DNA from: Trigonopsis variabilis
Taxonomy: Eukaryota; Ascomycota; Trigonopsidomycetes; Trigonopsidales; Trigonopsidaceae
NCBI GenBank assembly: GCA_003707065.3
Contig: PPXM03000005.1
Location: forward strand, 538,501-602,500
DNA length: 64,000 nucleotides
Direction: 5' to 3'
The notes under the pieces are model-generated. The model saw nothing but the letters and a program-made list of their open reading frames with translations, was not told where the DNA came from and did no database searches. The translations under genes and the position numbers were made by a program. This document shows, in pieces, positions 26,962-54,776 of this stretch (the stretch's first letter is position 1; the number at the start of each line of letters is the position of its first letter).

Positions 26962-28256
<1,295 letters not shown>

Positions 28257-35152: not shown

Positions 35153-36409
35153 TCATGCATTGGTTTCCTCGCTTCGTACCTGGGCTCGAAAGGTCTCCAC
35201 CTCGTGAATAATGGCCTCCTTCATTTCGTCGATATCGTCCATCTCCTCAAACGAAAAGTCAAAAGGCGTTGGACACACGGTCTCTTCCTTGGGATCGCGC
35301 CATATCTTTAGGTAGGGGTGCTCGAGAGCTTCATCGACCGTTATCCGCTCGGTGGGGTCGATAACCAACATTCGTTTGAGAAGGTCCATGCCCAGTGGAT
35401 TGGCCTTGGGGAATAATTGATCGAGAGAAGTGATCTGGGCGGGGTCAAGGGTGACCTCCGATACAAACGACTGAGCCTTCTCTGATCCGATTTTATACAT
35501 TGTTTCTGGAGAGGGTTTCCCGAGGACGTAGAAGACGAGACAAAGCTGATGGACAAAGTCTTTACCCGGGAAAAGAGCTCGACCGCCCATGAGTTCGGCA
35601 AGAATGCAGCCGACAGACCAGATATCGATGGCATTGGTATATTGTTGATGGGAGAGCATCAGTTCAGGAGCACGGTACCACCTTGTAGCAACGTATTCGG
35701 TCATTGCTCCAGCATTAGAATCATCTGTCTCTGAAAACCCTCGAGCCAAGCCAAAGTCGCAAATCTTGAGCTCACAGTCGGCGTTGACGAGGATATTTGA
35801 CGGCTTGAGGTCTCGATGGAGGACGTTTGCAGAGTGGATATACTTCAACCCGCAAAAAATCTGATAAATAAAACTCTGGAAATGGGCATCAGTCAAAGGC
35901 TGGCCTGAATGGATGATCTGATGAAGATCGCAGTCCATCAATTCTGGTCTGGTTAGCTTGCAGCGACTACAACCGCATACCTTCGTAGACATAAACTTCG
36001 TTAAAATTGGACGTATCTATGATATCCAAATCATATAATCTAGTAACCTGGCAAACGTTAGCAACCCGTCCTCTGAACGTTCAAGCATACATTTTTATGG
36101 CCTAGATGTTAGCAATGCTTTGGAATATAAGGACCACCAACCTCTTAGATGCCTTAGTAATTTTATTTCCCGTAACGCTCGTTTAGTAAGGATGGTTTTG
36201 GAAAAGACATTAGTTAATTTCTTTACTGCCACACCCGGCTCATTCGGTCGGTCTATGTATTTCGCAGCACAAACAACGCCGTAAGTCCCCTGGCCTAGCT
36301 CTTTCACCAGTTTACACCGCTTATCGACGGTGAAGACCTGTTTGAAGACACTGAAGGTTAGTCGAGATCGCAAGCCGGTATAGTTCAACGAGTGGCTAGT
36401 CAGATCCAT
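35153..36409 (-). CDS. SLT2: Slt2/Mpk1-type cell-wall-integrity MAP kinase (TEY)
   Basis: Four exons: 36409-36142, 36101-36091, 36047-35981 and 35943-35153; introns are 40, 43 and 37 nt; product 378 residues. Exon 2 is only 11 nt and supplies part of Gly plus His-Lys-Asn, completing the [14 protein letters not shown] segment that all Slt2-type kinases share. Marks: glycine loop [42 protein letters not shown], and TEY in [15 protein letters not shown]. In yeast this kinase answers cell-wall stress downstream of Pkc1. The first 5' splice site is GTTGGT, weaker than the others in this window. No long C-terminal poly-Gln tail of the kind seen in S. cerevisiae Slt2. Confidence 0.93.
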
Positions 36410-42912: not shown

Positions 42913-45900
42913 ATGGGTTAGTACCGCTGCGGTGGATTGAAGTGTTGAAACGTTGCTGATTCTGGTTGGTCAGAGGAACAGGTTGGATCGTCCTGATTCA
43001 GGCTGTCTCCTAGACTGTTTAGTGAACGATTAGGTATTCCGAAGTTTTTCCGATGGATTTCGAACCGATATCCAATGATTAGTCAACTAATCGAAGAAAA
43101 GCAGATTCCAGAGTAAGCCAAGGTCTGAAATGTCGACTAATCCTAGGTTTGATAACATGTACCTGGACATGAACTCGATTCTACGTACGAATGGAGAGAT
43201 TAGCAATACTGATTATTAGATACATGCACTCACAAGGATCCAGAACAAGATGCAACGAGGCGAATGACGGAAGAAGAGATGTACGTGGCGATCTTCACTT
43301 ATATCGACCACCTCTTCAAGAAGATCAAGCCGAAAAAGCTATTATTTATGGCTATTGATGGAGTCGCGCCGCGAGCAAAGATGAATCAACAACGATCTAG
43401 ACGATTTCGGACGGCCAAAGAGGCCGAAGAAGCTCGGCAGAAGGCGGTTGAGAGTGGCTTGGACATGCCCAAGGAAGATCCGTTCGACTCTAATGCAATT
43501 ACCCCTGGAACAGAATTCATGGCCAAGTTGAGCAAGCAATTGAGCTACTTTATCCATAAAAAGATCTCTGAAGATTCTGATTGGCAGTCGTGTGCCATTA
43601 TTTTGTCGGGACACGAGGTGCCTGGGGAAGGTGAACATAAGATCAGCGAATACATCCGCCGCTCACGAGCCCAAGAAGACTACAATCCCAACACTCGTCA
43701 TTGTTTATATGGCTTGGATGCCGATCTAATCATGTTAGGTTTGCTTAGCCACGACCCGCATTTCTGCTTGTTACGAGAAGAGGTCCTGTTTGGCAATCAA
43801 GCCAAGAAAACAAAAGGCTTGGAAGAACAAAACTTCTTTCTGTTGCATCTTTCCTTACTCCGTGAATATCTACAACTGGAGTTTTCTTCTCTCATCCCTT
43901 TGTTACCTTTCCCTTACGATTTCGAACGGATCATTGATGATTATATCTTGATTAACTTTATGGTGGGCAACGATTTCTTGCCTCATCTTCCTTCAATGAA
44001 CATCAACGAAGGCGCGCTGGTCGTCATCATGCAGTCCTACAAACACATCTTACCCAAGTGTGACGGATATCTTAATGATAATGGTGTTATAAACTTTCAT
44101 AACCTTGATCTTCTCTTGCAAGAAATTGAAAAGTACGAAGTCGAGCTGTTCGAGTCCCAAGGAGTCAGCCTTGAATGGTTCAACAAGGAGCTCGAGACCC
44201 GAGGCTTCAAGGGTGTTCCGGCCAAGGCGTCCAAAAAGAAGTTTTCCATGACCCCCAAGCAATACGAAATCTATGAGCTGATCAAGGGATTTGCATTGAA
44301 AGAACTCCTGGTATCCTTTCCTAGACCTGATGAGCCATATTTAGATCTACCGTCCGACTTATCCGAGAGTGATATATCATTTGTCAACACCTTATTATCC
44401 AAGATAAAGCTAAGGAGTTATTTTGTTGATTCTGCCCCAGATCAGGCTGATGGCCAAGGCTCCTCCAAGCACCTCCGCGTGGAGATCGACTATGGTGCCA
44501 TTTCAGAATACGAAGACGAAGATGAGCAGGAGGAACGATATTTTGAGTTGAAGCGGGTCTTTAAGAGATACGATAAGGCTGAGATTGATGATTCGATTCC
44601 CTCAGCCGATGATGCTGTCAATGAGGCCGATCTGATCAAACAACGAGAACATGAGCATTGGAAGGATAAGTACTATAAAGAAAAACTGAACTTCTCCTTG
44701 TACGACGAAGATCAAGTCAGAGCAATGGCGGAAAACTACTTGGAAGGTATGCAGTGGGTTCTTTTATATTACTATCGTGGCGTTCCCTCTTGGTCATGGT
44801 ATTTTCGGTACCATTATGCCCCGAAAATCACCGATATCCGTAAAGGGCTCAAGCTGAAACCAGAGTTCAACCTGGGAACTCCGTTCAAGCCATTTGAACA
44901 GCTGATGGGGGTGCTCCCAGCCCGTAGTCAAAAGCTGATTCCTCCTGCTTATCGCGACCTCATGACAGACGAAGAGTCTCCTATTATAGATTTCTACCCC
45001 CACACTTTCAAGGAGGACCTCAATGGAAAGAAGAACAGCTGGGAAGCGGTGGTCCAGATTCCGTTTGTGGATGAGAAGCGGTTGATTGAAGTGATGAAGA
45101 CCCGGGAAGGCGCTCTGACGACTGAAGAAAGGCAGCGGAATTCATTTGGACAGACTCGGATATATTATTATGACCCAACTCTCGACACCATCTATCCGTC
45201 ATCGCTGCCTGGAGTTTTTCTTGATATCGAGCATTGTCATTGTTTTGAAAAAGAGTATGTGTTGCCTAATATGGACGGACTCGAGTATCGACAAGGATTA
45301 CATAAAGATGCGTTCTTGGGATCGGATTTCCTGGCTGGGTTTGCTACTTTAGATACCCTTCAGTTCACTTCTGTGACTGACTTTGGCGGCGTCACCGTTT
45401 TCCAGCAACCTTCTCGAGAAGTTAGCGTCCTCATAATTATCGAGAATGAGTATCAGGGTCTTGCACCTGAAAAGATTGCTCTTCAAATTGTTGGCAAGAA
45501 GATCTTTTATAACTGGCCGTTCCTGCGAGAAGGCAAACTGATGGCTATATCTGATAGTCTGTTCCGTTATGAGGTCTCCCATACTACTGGCCATCCCACT
45601 GTTCTTCATCAACCGATGACGGATGGTGAGCAACAACAATATCGTCGGGGAGGACGTCGGATAGAGATGGATTATCTCAAAAAGAAAGGTGTTCGCATGG
45701 GAAACGTTGAATTCTTGGCTCACATTGCGCCTCTTAAAGGGCTAATGCTGAAGAGAGACGGTTCGTTGGTTAAAGAATACGATGACCTTAAAGAGATGGT
45801 CTATCCGCTGCAGATCACCGTCAAGACTGTGACTCATGAGGACGAACGATACATCGAGCGAGGGGCGCTGAAGTTGTCGGACGAATTTTCGGCTGGAGAT

Positions 45901-47466
45901 GATGTGGTGTTTTTAGGGGACTTTGCATTTGGCTCAAAATCTCGAGTCACTGAAGTGGGGCAAACGAGACTGACGTTGGAAGTTCAGCGGCCTCAAGAAC
46001 GTGAGCCAGTGATTGGCATCCAGGTTGCCAAAGAGGCCCTTACTCATAGTCGATACTATCCATCGTATGAAATCAGTCAAAAATTGGGAATTCACCCTCT
46101 TATTCTCAGCAAAATCACGTCGAGATTCAAGGTGTCGATGACTGACGGGAAACGAGCGGATATTGGATTAAACTTGAAGTATGAAGCGCAAAAGATGAAA
46201 GTGATCGACTATTCGCGCCGAATGACCAATGGATGGGAATTCTCTGATAAAGCTGTCAAACTCATTGATTCCTATAAACGTGCGTTTCCCCAGTTGTTCC
46301 ATAACTTGGCCGGCTGTATCCATAAAGATGAAATTTCGGCCAGTGACCTATTTCCTGGAAAGAGCCCAGACCAGTTGAAGGACGAGTTTGGGAACATCCG
46401 CAAATGGCTCAAAGATGCTACAAGCGGCCTCGAAGCTGTCACATTAGAGTCTGACCAGCTTGGAGCTGAGTGGGTCGACAAGATTGAGAAGTCAATGGAC
46501 CTTTACCTCGCTCGAGCTCCTCCTCCGTTGACCAAGTACGTTTCCAATATTCCTCGTGAGGCCGTATTGAAGCCTGAGAATGCCCAATACCAGCTGCGAG
46601 GTCAAAAGTTCCGGCTGGGCGATCGTGTAAGGTACTGCTCTGAGGCTGGCAGTGTTCCACTTTTTAGCTGTGGAACCGTGGTGGGGATCAATCACTACGG
46701 TATCAATGTCACCTTGGACATTCTCTTTGACCACGACTTCTTTGGTGGATCTAGCTTGGGTGGCCGATGCTCCAAGAATCGAGGAGCGACTGTTGACGCT
46801 ACGACTGCCATCAATTTGACCAATCGTCAAGTCGTCAGCCAGTCCCGTGCATCTAAAAGCCGTGTCCACAATGTCAATATGACCACTGATGTCCGACAGA
46901 ACGTTTCTAGCCGCTTGGAAGACCGCAACGGTCCTCGTGGTCGTGGGGGACTCCGAGGCCGTGGAGGCCGAGGAGACTCTGGCCGAGGGGGATTACGACC
47001 TGGAAGAGGAGGTATTAGTCGCATCAACCAACCGGACACGCATGCAGCTCAGTCTGTTCCGGCTATCTCATCGTCTAGGTCCATTCTCCAGCGGCTCGGC
47101 CAGCCTACGATCAGTTCCAACGGACATACGGCCAACAATGCCTCTGAGCCCTCTGCTGATGCAATTGCTGGTAGCTCTGCAGCCTCGCTGGAGGCGCTAC
47201 TGACCAAGGCGAAGGAAGACTATGAGAGTACTCGCCAGTCTGTCAATCCTTCGCTTGTGGCTGCTGCTCAGGCTGTTCAATCGTCTGCAGAGGCTGGAGG
47301 ATCCACGATGGAAAGCGCAGCCCGTGATTTACTTGATATGCTTCAAAACGGACATGACGAGAACCAAGCGACGGACCAAGGACGAGGTCGCGGACGTGGT
47401 CGTGGTCGCGGCCGCGGTCGAGGTCAAGGACGAGGACGAGGGCGAGGAAACAGAGGCGATGAATGA
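42913..47466 (+). CDS. XRN1: 5'-3' exoribonuclease 1 (Xrn1/Kem1)
   Basis: Four exons: 42913-42916, 43034-43112, 43147-43184 and 43220-47466 (introns 117, 34 and 35 nt); product 1455 residues. The main cytoplasmic nuclease for decapped mRNA. Splicing rebuilds the conserved start [45 protein letters not shown], so the first exon codes only ATGG. The catalytic N-terminal half has SGHEVPGEGEHKI, YGLDADLIMLGL and VGNDFLPHLPS, with the metal-binding acids. Later parts hold the PAZ/KOW/SH3-like region. The C-terminus has two Arg-Gly stretches (about 46940-47020 and 47385-47460) likely to bind RNA. It converges with SPC3. Confidence 0.96.
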
Positions 47467-49656: not shown

Positions 49657-50796
49657 ATGATCCAGAAGAATACCATTATCTTCAATCGTTCTATTATGTC
49701 TTCTCGGCTTTATAACGAGTCTTTTCAGCTATCCAACCTATCCCATCATGAATTGAGCTTGAGTGAGACGAATGACAATCCCATTCCCCACAATCTTGGT
49801 ACTTCATCTTGCCCACGGTTCGGAGACGTCTATTGCCCTGCAGATATAACAACTGATCCCTCAGAATACTTGTTCACACTGGCAGGCCTTTCTGTTGATT
49901 CACTCTTTGATGATCGAACACATTCGTCTTCATCGGAAGACACAGAGAATAATCAGCCCGAGCAGTTCATCAGCTTTGAAAACAATGATGACAAGTTAGC
50001 ATCGGACTCTGAATTGCGATATGAGCTATTAAATAAGTTGGACTCATTTCTCAGCCCAGAATATTCGCATTTGGCTTTTGTTGATCAGGCGACGCCAGAA
50101 CTGGCTACATCTATGGATATGGGGCGTCATTCATGTCCAGTCCAGGACCATTTCGAGGAAAACGAGTATGAGAACCTCAGCTTAGCTCCATTTGGGGCTA
50201 ATCCATCCAGCAGAGAATCCTCTTACTTTACAAGCTCACGCGAAACTACTGCAGTCGAGAATTCGCCAGTGTCGAGCTTAGGAGAATTATCCAATGAAAC
50301 CTTACTAGGGCTATTGGCAGGAGATGGTGTTCGGATTGAGAACTCCATTGCTCTAGATGGCTCAATTCTGTCTTGTCCCGGCGTCGCTACAGTTTGCGAG
50401 CCGTCGACTTCAAATGGACGACGAGGGGCGGCGAAGACTACAAAAGGGAGTGGTCGCGCCAAGAAGCGCTATACTTGCCCCATTTGTAATAAATCCCTTG
50501 CCCGAGACTTGGCCCGGCACATGAGAACTCATGAAGACCAGGCCCGTTTTGTTTGTCCTTTTCCCAGGACCAAGTGTCCTCATAAGAGAGGTCAGTTCAA
50601 TCGATGTTACGACCAGAAGAAGCATCTCCTCCATGCTCATTTTGTATTCACAGACAGAAAAATCAAGAGGCTCCACAATCTAGGGGACAAGATTGGGTAT
50701 AAGGGAAGATGCATATGTGGAGCTCATACAGACTCAGAGTCTTTCCTGCAGTACCACATTGGGCTTGGTCTCTGTCCTCTCCTTTATGAAAGTTAG
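49657..50796 (+). CDS. C2H2 zinc-finger protein, likely transcription factor
   Basis: 379 residues, no intron. The first 265 residues are Ser/Glu/Asn-rich and probably an activation region. The C-terminus has a classical finger YTCPICNKSLARDLARHMRTH, then a variant finger with FVCPFPRTKCPHKRGQFNRCYDQKKHLLHAHF, and a third Cys/His cluster (RCICGAHTDSESFLQYHIGLGLCPLL). The basic linker GAAKTTKGSGRAKKR before the fingers may be a nuclear signal. The target genes are unknown. Its 3' end is followed within 30-60 bp by an inverted partial copy of its own finger-coding sequence, so its mRNA may fold into a long hairpin. Confidence 0.8.
   Translation: MIQKNTIIFNRSIMSSRLYNESFQLSNLSHHELSLSETNDNPIPHNLGTSSCPRFGDVYCPADITTDPSEYLFTLAGLSVDSLFDDRTHSSSSEDTENNQPEQFISFENNDDKLASDSELRYELLNKLDSFLSPEYSHLAFVDQATPELATSMDMGRHSCPVQDHFEENEYENLSLAPFGANPSSRESSYFTSSRETTAVENSPVSSLGELSNETLLGLLAGDGVRIENSIALDGSILSCPGVATVCEPSTSNGRRGAAKTTKGSGRAKKRYTCPICNKSLARDLARHMRTHEDQARFVCPFPRTKCPHKRGQFNRCYDQKKHLLHAHFVFTDRKIKRLHNLGDKIGYKGRCICGAHTDSESFLQYHIGLGLCPLLYES
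50374..50770 (+). repeat. Inverted repeat, arm A (inside zinc-finger gene)
   Basis: This arm covers the finger-coding region and pairs with arm B in reverse complement. The best part, 50507-50649 (143 bp), matches 50914-51057 at every base except one extra A in arm B. Outside that core the match continues with mismatches and small deletions. Confidence 0.85.
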
Positions 50797-50826
50797 AGAG
50801 CTCAGCATAACTCAAGACCAATTTTA

Positions 50827-51140
50827 GTGTGATATTCAGAAAGACTTAGAGTCTGTTTGAGCTCCACGCATGCAATCTTGTCTCCAAGATTGTGGGCGCT
50901 ATGTCATGTATCTGAATACAAAATGAGCATGGAGGAGATGCTTCTTCTGGTCGTAACATCGATTGAACTGACCTCTCTTATGAGGACACTTGGTCCTGGG
51001 AAAAAGGACAAACAAAACGGGCCTGGTCTTCATGAGTTCTCATGTGCCGGGCCAAGTCGGGGCAAGGGATTTATTGCAAATGGGGCAAGTATAGCGCTTC
51101 TCTAGCCCGAGCTCTCCCATCTGTAGTGACGCCGGGACAA
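50827..51140 (-). pseudogene. Inverted repeat, arm B: inverted partial copy of the zinc-finger gene
   Basis: A reverse-complement copy of the finger-coding part of the gene at 49657-50796, separated from it by about 56 bp. The 144-bp core (50914-51057) is identical to the gene but for one inserted A. Toward 51140 a stretch of about 50 bp is missing between two TGTAG points; near 50870 about 15 bp are missing. The copy has no start and is not a gene itself. The near-perfect core beside diverged flanks suggests either a recent copy with gene conversion, or a fragment from a related gene elsewhere. Confidence 0.85.
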
Positions 51141-51536
51141 GACGCGTAGGATATCACCAGGAATCCGGTTTTTCAATCGGAACACCATCTCCTGCTTGAC
51201 CCCTAACGCAATAATTCCAATTCATGTTTTGATATATTTATAAATAGGTCTATAATTGCTGTCTGTAGATATTGTCGTATATATAGAGGTTATAGATATA
51301 GTCAATTGCACGCAAAAGTCGCTAGCACATCCTCTCGTAAAGATATCAGCATATATTCAACATTTGCGCGGTTCCCATCTTTTAGATGAAACTATGGCAG
51401 TAAAAATTAGTCTGTCTTTTTCTAACGTGACAAACAAAGAAGAGCAATTATCTCAATCGCATAGGAAAGCCTTGTGTTTGAGTAACGCATCAAGAACCTC
51501 ATAGACTAGCTGGATCTGGCTAGGATACAATAATGC

Positions 51537-51546
51537 NNNNNNNNNN
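51537..51546. other. Assembly gap (10 N)
   Basis: Ten unknown bases. The true length may differ. It precedes an A-rich stretch, which is a common cause of a sequencing or assembly break. Confidence 0.95.
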
Positions 51547-51593
51547 AAAAACACAAAACACAGGTGAATCAGGGTAGGAAAAAAAGGTAAATG

Positions 51594-51629
<36 letters not shown>
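51594..51629 (+). repeat. Poly-A tract of 36
   Basis: An uninterrupted run of 36 A, preceded by an A-rich stretch. It could be a microsatellite or the tail of a retrocopied sequence whose body lies in or left of the gap; I see no recognisable body. Confidence 0.9.
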
Positions 51630-51631
<2 letters not shown>

Positions 51632-52051: not shown

Positions 52052-54776
52052 CTATTTCTCACAAATCCATTCTCCGAAAACGCACCAAGCCTGACCATCA
52101 TCTGAAAGGACCAGGCCCCTCCAAGTACCTCGCTCGTTGCAAGCGGTAGAAACTTCATAATGAGTATAAAAAGGATCAGTAATGGAAGCAACTGAGTCTG
52201 AATTAGTTGGGGCACTGTTTGAACACTTGTTCATCCTTGAGATCTTCCCACTTGGAGACTGTAAAGCTATCCGGGTATTCGACGTGCCTGTAGTCCCCAC
52301 TGATGAAAAATGGCACTTGACTTTAAAGGAGTAGGTGTTTTCCAGCAACAGATCACCACATTGAGGTTGAATAACGTAAATATCCCTACTTTTCGCCCGA
52401 GAGTTCCCGTACGTCCTGATGACGCTAAAAGGAGCATTTTCGCCACTGTGCATCAATGCAATACTACAAAGTAGTGAGCCTTCACTATCCTTGGAGTCAT
52501 CTTGCGGTTTTCTGCAGACATCCAGCGTTCCCTGTCGCTTACCATAAGGTATAAACGCCTTGATACGATAGTAGCGGCTTCCTTTCAGCCAGTAGGGCTG
52601 AGCCAACATCCTCATCTCTTTCTCAGGACCGGTGTTTATGTATCCATCTCGACTATTCGGGTCCACAACTAGTCCTCCTATTCTCATATTCGCATAGCAC
52701 TCGAGTCCTTGGGGAATCCTGACGTCGACTTGGAATATTTCCAATCCGTTTAATCTTGCCATACTAGTATTATAATTCATAATCTCACATTCGTCGCTGC
52801 CGGGCCCGATTAAAGGTAAGGAAAACGCAAAATCTCGGGATAGAGGTGGTAACAAATGCTGGTTCGAAGGTTTCAACGGCACATGAGTCGAGATAAACCG
52901 AGAAGGATTCTCCAAAAAGAAAATATCAGATCCCTGTCTAAATGACTTGAACATAGGTCGTCGTGGGTAAGCCACGTTACCAACAACGACATCACAGAAC
53001 CTCCATTGATCTTCAACCAAGACCGAGGTCCAGTAGTAACCACTGGACGAATTAGATATCAACCGCTGGTCATATAAGGTATCAGGAAACTTTATTGTGC
53101 CTTGGACTACCGTGCACTGGACCCTGAAATAAGTGCAGATATACCTGAAAAGCTGGCATAGTTCATATGAGGTAGCGCATTGCCTTTTCAACACGTGAGT
53201 GAAAAAGAGATCCTGCTGGCCGGTACTGGAAGCAGTCTGAAAAGAGATTTTGACTTCTTCGTCGTCTCCGTCGATCCATCTGATCTTGGAAGCACAGAAT
53301 ATATAAGCAAAGCGAGCAGCATCGACATCAGTCCGAATGTGCGAGCTTATACTCATCCTCAAAATACTATCAATACCCCATTCAGGCAGTCTGGTGAGGT
53401 CCAAGTTCGTCAAGACCCCATCGATTTCGTACGAGATGGCTAATACATTGTCATATACCATTCCTTCACGTCCTTCGCATGCGCAAGCTCTCCATTCCTC
53501 GCAAGGAGAATTTCCAGAAAAACCTTGAAGGACTTGTCTCTCTCGCCTAGCTTGACGTTCTCGCTTGCTGACGGAGTTCGCCCGATTCACATCACGTCTT
53601 ACAGCCATCCAGTCACTGGCATTTGTGGACCTGTTAGGCACTCGTGTTATATCGTTTGACGACGCTTCGGATACCCCACTGTAGCCTGCTGACGACGTTG
53701 CATCCTCTGATGAAGCGGAAGACATCTCTGAGAACTGATGTTCGTTCGAAGAAGTAAACAACCGTTTAAAAGACCATTTCTTCTTGTCTCTAGGTGAAAT
53801 GTCTTGAACATAGGTAGGAGTAGCTGACGGTAAAGCGGCGACAGGAGTCACATCGTGGCTCACGCTGACAACGCGATGCTTTATCTGGGGTTCTTTTTCC
53901 TTTTTAGCTAGCCTTCTTCTGGCCAAGCTTCCTGCAGAAGTTGCACTCTGCTCACTCCATTGCGTGGTCTCTGTCCGATCTGATAGCCGACGAGCCTTGT
54001 TGAAAAGTCTCGAGTGAACAGGAACAGGAGGTGGGGGTGGTATCTCTTCGATATGCTTGTCGTATTTTGGAACGGGAGGAAGCTTCGCTTTGTCTTTTGA
54101 CACGGGCGAGGCTGACAGATCCGGACTATAGAGAGAAAGGCTCTTGGGCGAATCACCGATAAGTTCTAACTTATCAAGTGTGTCAAACATATCGTACATC
54201 TCTTCCTCTCTGTCATCTTCGTCGTAAGTCTTGGCTTCGCTCGCGTCGCGATCCTCAGCATTGTTTCGATACGAAACTCTGTGTGGAGGAGGCTGGGGTA
54301 TAGCTTCTTCAAATATCGACTCTTGTAATGAGTCAATACTTTCGAGAGACCCGTTGCGTTTGTGGCTAGACAAACTCATCCAGTCATCTTGGTCATGACC
54401 ACGCACGGTCGTCTGAGAATCTTGGCTGATTCGACTCATTTTCGACTGCATCCGACTAACTTCTTTGTAAGGCGATCCCACTGGCTTATCTGGCTGTTTG
54501 TTCCTAGACGAGTCAGCAAAAACGCGACAAACACCGCGTATATACTTACACCAAGACAACAAAATTCCTCGGAAACGAGCCATGGGCCTTTGTTCTTTTC
54601 AATTGTCCATACCACCAGTTGCCGTCTCCAGGGTGTAAAGCTTCAATCAGATCTCCTTCTACAAAGCCAAGGTCACCTGGCCGTTAATACAAAGCTCCCT
54701 CAGCTTCCTTACTCTTCTCTTCTCCCGAGAACGAAAACACAGCCCGACATAGACACGGAAACTGGATCTCATCCAT
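52052..54776 (-). CDS. CYK3: Cytokinesis protein Cyk3 (SH3 plus transglutaminase-like)
   Basis: Three exons: 54776-54713, 54676-54550 and 54503-52052 (introns 36 and 46 nt); product 880 residues. The two small 5' exons build an SH3 domain (about residues 8-64): CRAVFSFSGEEK-SDLGFVEGDLIEAL, then GDGNWWYGQLKRT and GSFPRNFVVLV. A long Ser-rich middle follows, then a transglutaminase-like fold (about 420-570) and the C-terminal Cyk3 region ending WRGLVLSDDGQAWCVFGEW. Cyk3 acts at the division site, with Hof1/Inn1 in yeast, to promote septum formation. The expected catalytic Cys seems replaced by Ser (ATSYEL) and the His of HAW by Tyr (GYYW), so the fold is probably non-catalytic, as in yeast Cyk3. 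Confidence 0.9.

Follow-up and report, generated by a model that had tools for sequence, protein, structure and literature searches.

The C2H2-type zinc-finger gene studied here (gene A) is followed directly by a real inverted partial duplication of its own 3' end in the budding yeast Trigonopsis variabilis. The copy, arm B, is decaying, while the core that corresponds to the first two fingers of the protein has probably been re-homogenised with the gene in the recent past, by arm-to-arm conversion or by template switching. The analysed window is a stretch of 64,000 nucleotides (C5:538501-602500) from a genome of 11.35 Mb in 15 contigs, and the features discussed below are collected in Table 1.

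Table 1. Coordinates of the gene A locus, the candidate RNAi genes and a hairpin-bearing paralogue. Plain numbers are window positions; numbers with an L prefix refer to loci of the sample described in the text.
Feature	Position	Strand	Description or basis
Gene A	49657-50796	+	Intact ORF, 379 aa, C2H2-type zinc-finger protein; C-terminal domain conserved in yeasts
Arm A, part of the gene that was duplicated	50317-50767	+	Alignment of arms
Arm A core	50462-50650	+	Residues 269-332, first two fingers (CPIC ... HLLHAHFVF)
Spacer (loop)	50768-50812		Contains gene A stop codon, 50794-50796
Arm B, decaying copy of arm A in inverted orientation	50813-51195	-	Alignment, BLAST
Arm B core	50913-51101	-	Alignment with arm A core
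Junction of 51-bp deletion in arm B	51121-51127	-	Missing relative to A 50386-50436
10-N assembly gap	51537-51546		About 340 bp past arm B
Argonaute gene	L021:4191-7070, C14	-	959 aa
RNase III with dsRNA-binding domains	L022:4317-6467, C1	+	Pfam, segment comparison
Paralogue at C11:257862	L016:4345-5397	-	One of six close paralogues
C11 coding stem 1	L016:4997-5054		28-bp arms, loop 2; fold z -10.1
C11 coding stem 2	L016:4818-4865		22-bp arms, loop 4; fold z -10.2
C11 coding stem 3	L016:4775-4804		14-bp arms; fold z -7.7
C11 upstream stem	L016:5760-5808		21-bp arms; fold z -11.0

Gene A is situated between an XRN1 gene (43264-47466, +) and a convergent CYK3-like gene (52052-54583, -). At 51537-51630 the window contains the assembly gap and, after it, about 30 consecutive A. 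An earlier note on this DNA had described near-identical inverted arms, and the alignment confirms them: 50506-50650 (145 bp) is the reverse complement of 50913-51058 without a single substitution, and the two differ by one insertion, an extra T in arm B at 51005. Over the whole core (50462-50650 versus 50913-51101), only 2 of 188 aligned bases are substituted between the arms, and there are three indels of 1 base each. The weaker matching reported around the core does extend along both arms, but it is patchy and interrupted by deletions in arm B, with one 26-bp block at 92% identity, one 23-bp block at 96% and the remaining blocks at 76-91%. The stop codon of gene A lies inside the spacer, as had been stated, but the alignment gives a spacer of 45 bp with fuzzy edges rather than one of about 56 bp. 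A BLAST comparison of the two arms returns E = 0.0, which rules out a chance match.

The core and its flanks differ sharply in divergence. In the well-aligned flank blocks, 20 of 156 bases differ between the arms (about 13%), against 2 of 188 in the core (Fisher P 6e-6). This contrast is conservative, because the flank rate includes neither the gaps nor two stretches that align poorly (50343-50369 and 50657-50672). The substitution-free run of 145 was matched by none of 20000 permutations. If the flank divergence is shared equally by both arms, the rate of arm B alone predicts 0 changes in 145 bp with a probability of 7e-5.

Relative to arm A, the deletions in arm B include one of 51 bp and one of 16 bp, and a short CTACA direct repeat in A, read from the sequence, flanks the stretch corresponding to the longer one. 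Stop codons interrupt all three minus-strand frames of arm B between 50837 and 51127, leaving no open frame. The 145-bp identity extends to synonymous sites, and arm B has only interrupted frames, so that selection on a protein from B does not account for it. At position 50716, the base of arm A is found in all six close paralogues and that of arm B in none, which fits A being the working copy. Six of the ten transitions between the arms would preserve a G-U pair and four would not, a proportion that gives no sign of selection on pairing.

A protein search of the same genome with gene A yields 14 matches, which include arm B in two pieces, five weaker relatives and six close paralogues with 53-66% protein identity, located on contigs C12, C11 (two), C4, C3 and C8. 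The C-terminal third of the protein has 45-55% identity to homologues in Sugiyamaella, Trichomonascus, Yarrowia and other contigs (13 hits), which suggests a budding yeast related to these three genera. None of the Pfam C2H2 models scores above its curated cut-off on the gene A protein (zf-C2H2, 17.3 bits with a cut-off of 25.2; zf-H2C2_2, 20.9 with a cut-off of 40), and a C-x2-C...H-x3-H pattern is visible by eye. The near-identical tract starts three residues before the cysteine of the first finger and stops just past HLLHAHFVF. The third, knuckle-like part of the zinc-finger domain lies outside this tract and has diverged between the arms.

A genome-wide DNA search with 50400-50800 as the query returns A, B and a single further match on C12, which at 70% identity is the best outside the locus. 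Arm B is therefore a copy of gene A and not of a sister gene, and the suggestion that it came from another member of the zinc-finger family is rejected. The existence of six close paralogues would make it conceivable that arm B represents the remnant of a second, truncated zinc-finger gene or derives from another family member, but with paralogue DNA at most 70% identical, against 98-100% for gene A, and no open frame in B, we regard this as extremely unlikely.

We propose that a foldback or template-switch event would have placed an inverted copy of the 3' third of gene A directly behind the gene, and that arm B would then have decayed through substitutions and small deletions. Later, the two-finger core was probably re-equalised, either by conversion from one arm to the other or by template switching between them. 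Such homogenisation would persist longest where gene A itself is constrained, and this would account for the coincidence of the identical tract with the finger module. The same coincidence of tract and functional module would equally be expected under selection on pairing. We infer the copying mechanism, and conversion tracts of about 190 bp between inverted arms, from the comparison of the two arms. Gene conversion had been put forward in the earlier note; the sharp contrast between core and flanks speaks for it, but one genome does not separate it from a second copying event.

The available sections of PMC8604942 and PMC8794818 describe imperfect inverted repeats that were turned perfect by template switching, and the former documents this homogenisation of arms for short repeats in S. 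cerevisiae genes. As in such homogenised arms, the identity of the A/B tract stands far above what the divergence of its flanks would give. The tract of about 190 bp differs in size from the repeats of the S. cerevisiae study, for which PMC8604942 gives arms of 7-16 bp and spacers of at most 70 bp.

A reading with two separate events, in which an old inverted duplication of about 450 bp was recently followed by another inverted copying of the core only, with no continuing conversion, explains the contrast between core and flanks equally. Short templated inverted duplications at breaks are also documented in yeast, according to the accessible portion of PMC11724301. However, the core lies in register within the older copy, so that the second event would need homology, that is, a conversion-like process, and we consider this reading distinctly unlikely. 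An assembly artefact, from a chimeric inverted read or a contig end, might be suspected from the 10-N gap and the long A run 340-430 bp away. It would make the arms equal throughout, whereas their flanks differ by about 13% and by several deletions, and is therefore very unlikely. The main rival to decay with re-homogenisation is a working self-silencing locus, in which a read-through hairpin would be cut into small RNAs by the single dsRNA-binding RNase III and Argonaute would use these to slice the gene A mRNA, establishing a negative feedback on a regulator. We judge this unlikely. The predicted RNA fold, the Argonaute and RNase III genes described below and the analogy with palindromic loci of another yeast argue for it, while the decayed flanks of the arms, substitutions that do not favour G-U pairs and an RNase III that is nearer to Rnt1 than to Dcr1 argue against it.

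In the predicted fold of an RNA of 50300-51220, at -634.9 kcal/mol, 379 base pairs form, the core accounting for 190, and the longest unbroken helix would span 88 bp. The predicted energy amounts to -0.69 kcal/mol per base, whereas 10 stretches drawn at random from the window average -0.29 (sd 0.035). This model agrees with the earlier expectation that a read-through RNA would form a hairpin over the finger region. TATATA first appears 481 nt past the stop codon of gene A and occurs within 600 nt in fewer than half of 76 ORFs, and the AT content of the first 50 nt after the stop is 0.64, against an average of 0.59. Given this scarcity of TATATA near ORFs and the average AT content after the stop, an early transcript end is possible. 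Silencing of the paralogues in trans by arm B is unlikely: in a comparison with 18 other loci, the longest exact run shared is 18 nt, with the C12 paralogue, and the other paralogue loci share at most 12.

A profile search of the genome finds one Argonaute gene, on contig C14 (Piwi E 5.7e-82). The ArgoN, L1, PAZ, L2 and Piwi domains score above their cut-offs, and Mid scores below its own. Plant and human Argonautes align with the greater part of the protein, and the alignment to solved Argonautes shows D, E, D and H at the conserved positions, which we take to be the catalytic residues. The closest proteins are from Basidiomycota (43% identity), and no named Saccharomycotina protein is found among the 120 matches listed of 325. 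The GC3 of the gene is 0.65, versus 0.40-0.50 in six other genes. From its sequence, a horizontal acquisition of this Argonaute gene appears possible.

Two RNase III loci are present, on C1 and C15, and the ORF of the latter has no dsRNA-binding domain. The C1 enzyme contains the catalytic motif and a dsRNA-binding part in which Pfam recognises two stretches and segment comparison three mutually similar dsRBD-like segments. In a scan of 67 of the 80 relatives listed, using a model built from the C1 protein's own segments, 34 of the 67 have two segments, 32 have one, one has none and none has three. The best solved relatives of the C1 enzyme are Rnt1-type ribonuclease 3 chains (E 5e-40), which match better than K. 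polysporus Dcr1 (E 2.5e-25), so that a Dicer role is only putative. In C. albicans, one such RNase III enzyme covers both roles, as stated in the available text of PMC5499181. Genome searches for RdRP and Dicer_dimer gave no match, but the control genomes gave none either. Since an Argonaute and an RNase III with dsRNA-binding segments are encoded, self-silencing is possible: a read-through RNA of arm B could form dsRNA, which RNase III might cut and which might then feed Argonaute.

A literature search over titles and abstract openings found no account of this arrangement of a gene and its inverted self-copy. Plant microRNA genes reportedly arise by inverted duplication, a finding said to go back to Allen in 2004. 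Target-derived hairpin RNA genes of Drosophila, in the partial text of PMC10317233, share with the A/B locus an inverted gene duplication and potential dsRNA against its source, and here the arm likewise derives from the would-be target, B from gene A. The Drosophila hairpin RNA genes and the plant microRNA genes act in trans from a separate locus, whereas A/B is not a separate, trans-acting locus: gene A is itself one arm, so that processing would destroy its own mRNA. The palindromic siRNA loci of N. castellii, as far as the available part of PMC7528652 describes them, resemble A/B as inverted repeats of a budding yeast with a potential hairpin transcript, in a genome with genes for Argonaute and for an RNase III that has several dsRNA-binding domains. 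The palindromes yield 74.1% of the siRNA reads there, so that the arrangement is of a kind that feeds yeast RNAi. Unlike in these palindromes, one arm of the locus described here belongs to a regulator gene that is intact, of which it makes up the 3' third, and the candidate RNase III is nearer to Rnt1 than to a yeast Dicer.

One of the two paralogues on C11 carries a cluster of near-perfect hairpins, whose z-scores in Table 1 compare RNA folds with shuffles. One of them, with a 22-bp stem, bears an AGAG tetraloop. Tetraloops of the AGNN type, which AGAG fits, are favoured by Rnt1. Outside this gene, the only stem that scores at least 14, a threshold set after the cluster had already been noticed, comes from the interior of the A/B pair; the 227,812 bases covered comprise the window and loci L015-L032 and are a non-random sample, since some of the loci were picked for their paralogues or RNAi genes. 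In 683,436 bases of shuffled copies no stem scores at least 14, and the highest score in 82 control ORFs is 11. An independent scan of RNA folds over 45,204 windows puts the two strongest hairpins of the C11 gene at ranks 1 and 2. None of the other five close paralogues has a hairpin of this strength, and hairpin enrichment across the family is not significant (7 genes versus 82 control ORFs, Mann-Whitney P 0.20). The C4 paralogue has a coding hairpin (L018:3985-4047, +) with a stem score of 12 and a z of -6.2 against its own shuffles; it does not stand out in the fold scan, where it takes ninth place with a z of -4.6.

The C11 hairpins occupy all three codon phases, as determined by hand from the coordinates, and lie in a part of the protein that is divergent and probably disordered. 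A genome search for copies of them elsewhere found none. We interpret them as inverted insertions copied from a template, or as products of template switching. They resemble the coding palindromes of Nematomorpha mitochondria, which the accessible text of PMC6649704 describes as inverted repeats within ORFs, and differ in lying in a nuclear yeast gene and in their shorter arms (14-28 bp). A tie between these hairpins and the A/B locus is suggestive only. It is unlikely that gene A is a transcription-factor gene with its own RNAi hairpin, restrained by RNase III and Argonaute, and that the C11 paralogue is a second member of the same system, controlled by RNase III through its coding hairpins.

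If the A/B hairpin is processed, the locus would represent a natural self-silencing regulator gene in an Argonaute-retaining budding yeast, and a chance to watch an inverted duplication turning into a small-RNA locus. If only decay and conversion are at work, the locus clearly exemplifies the homogenisation of inverted arms over about 190 bp.

A second inverted pair in the window (27541-27838 and 35595-35895, 68% identity) lies within two ORFs on opposite strands, presumably protein kinases from their HRDLKPSN motif, and is a pair of ordinary paralogues. Elsewhere on the same contig, a 10-kb region (L032, C5:250001-260000) has a GC content of 0.61, in a genome of about 45% GC, and a deviating tetranucleotide usage, and contains a chaperonin (Cpn60) gene.
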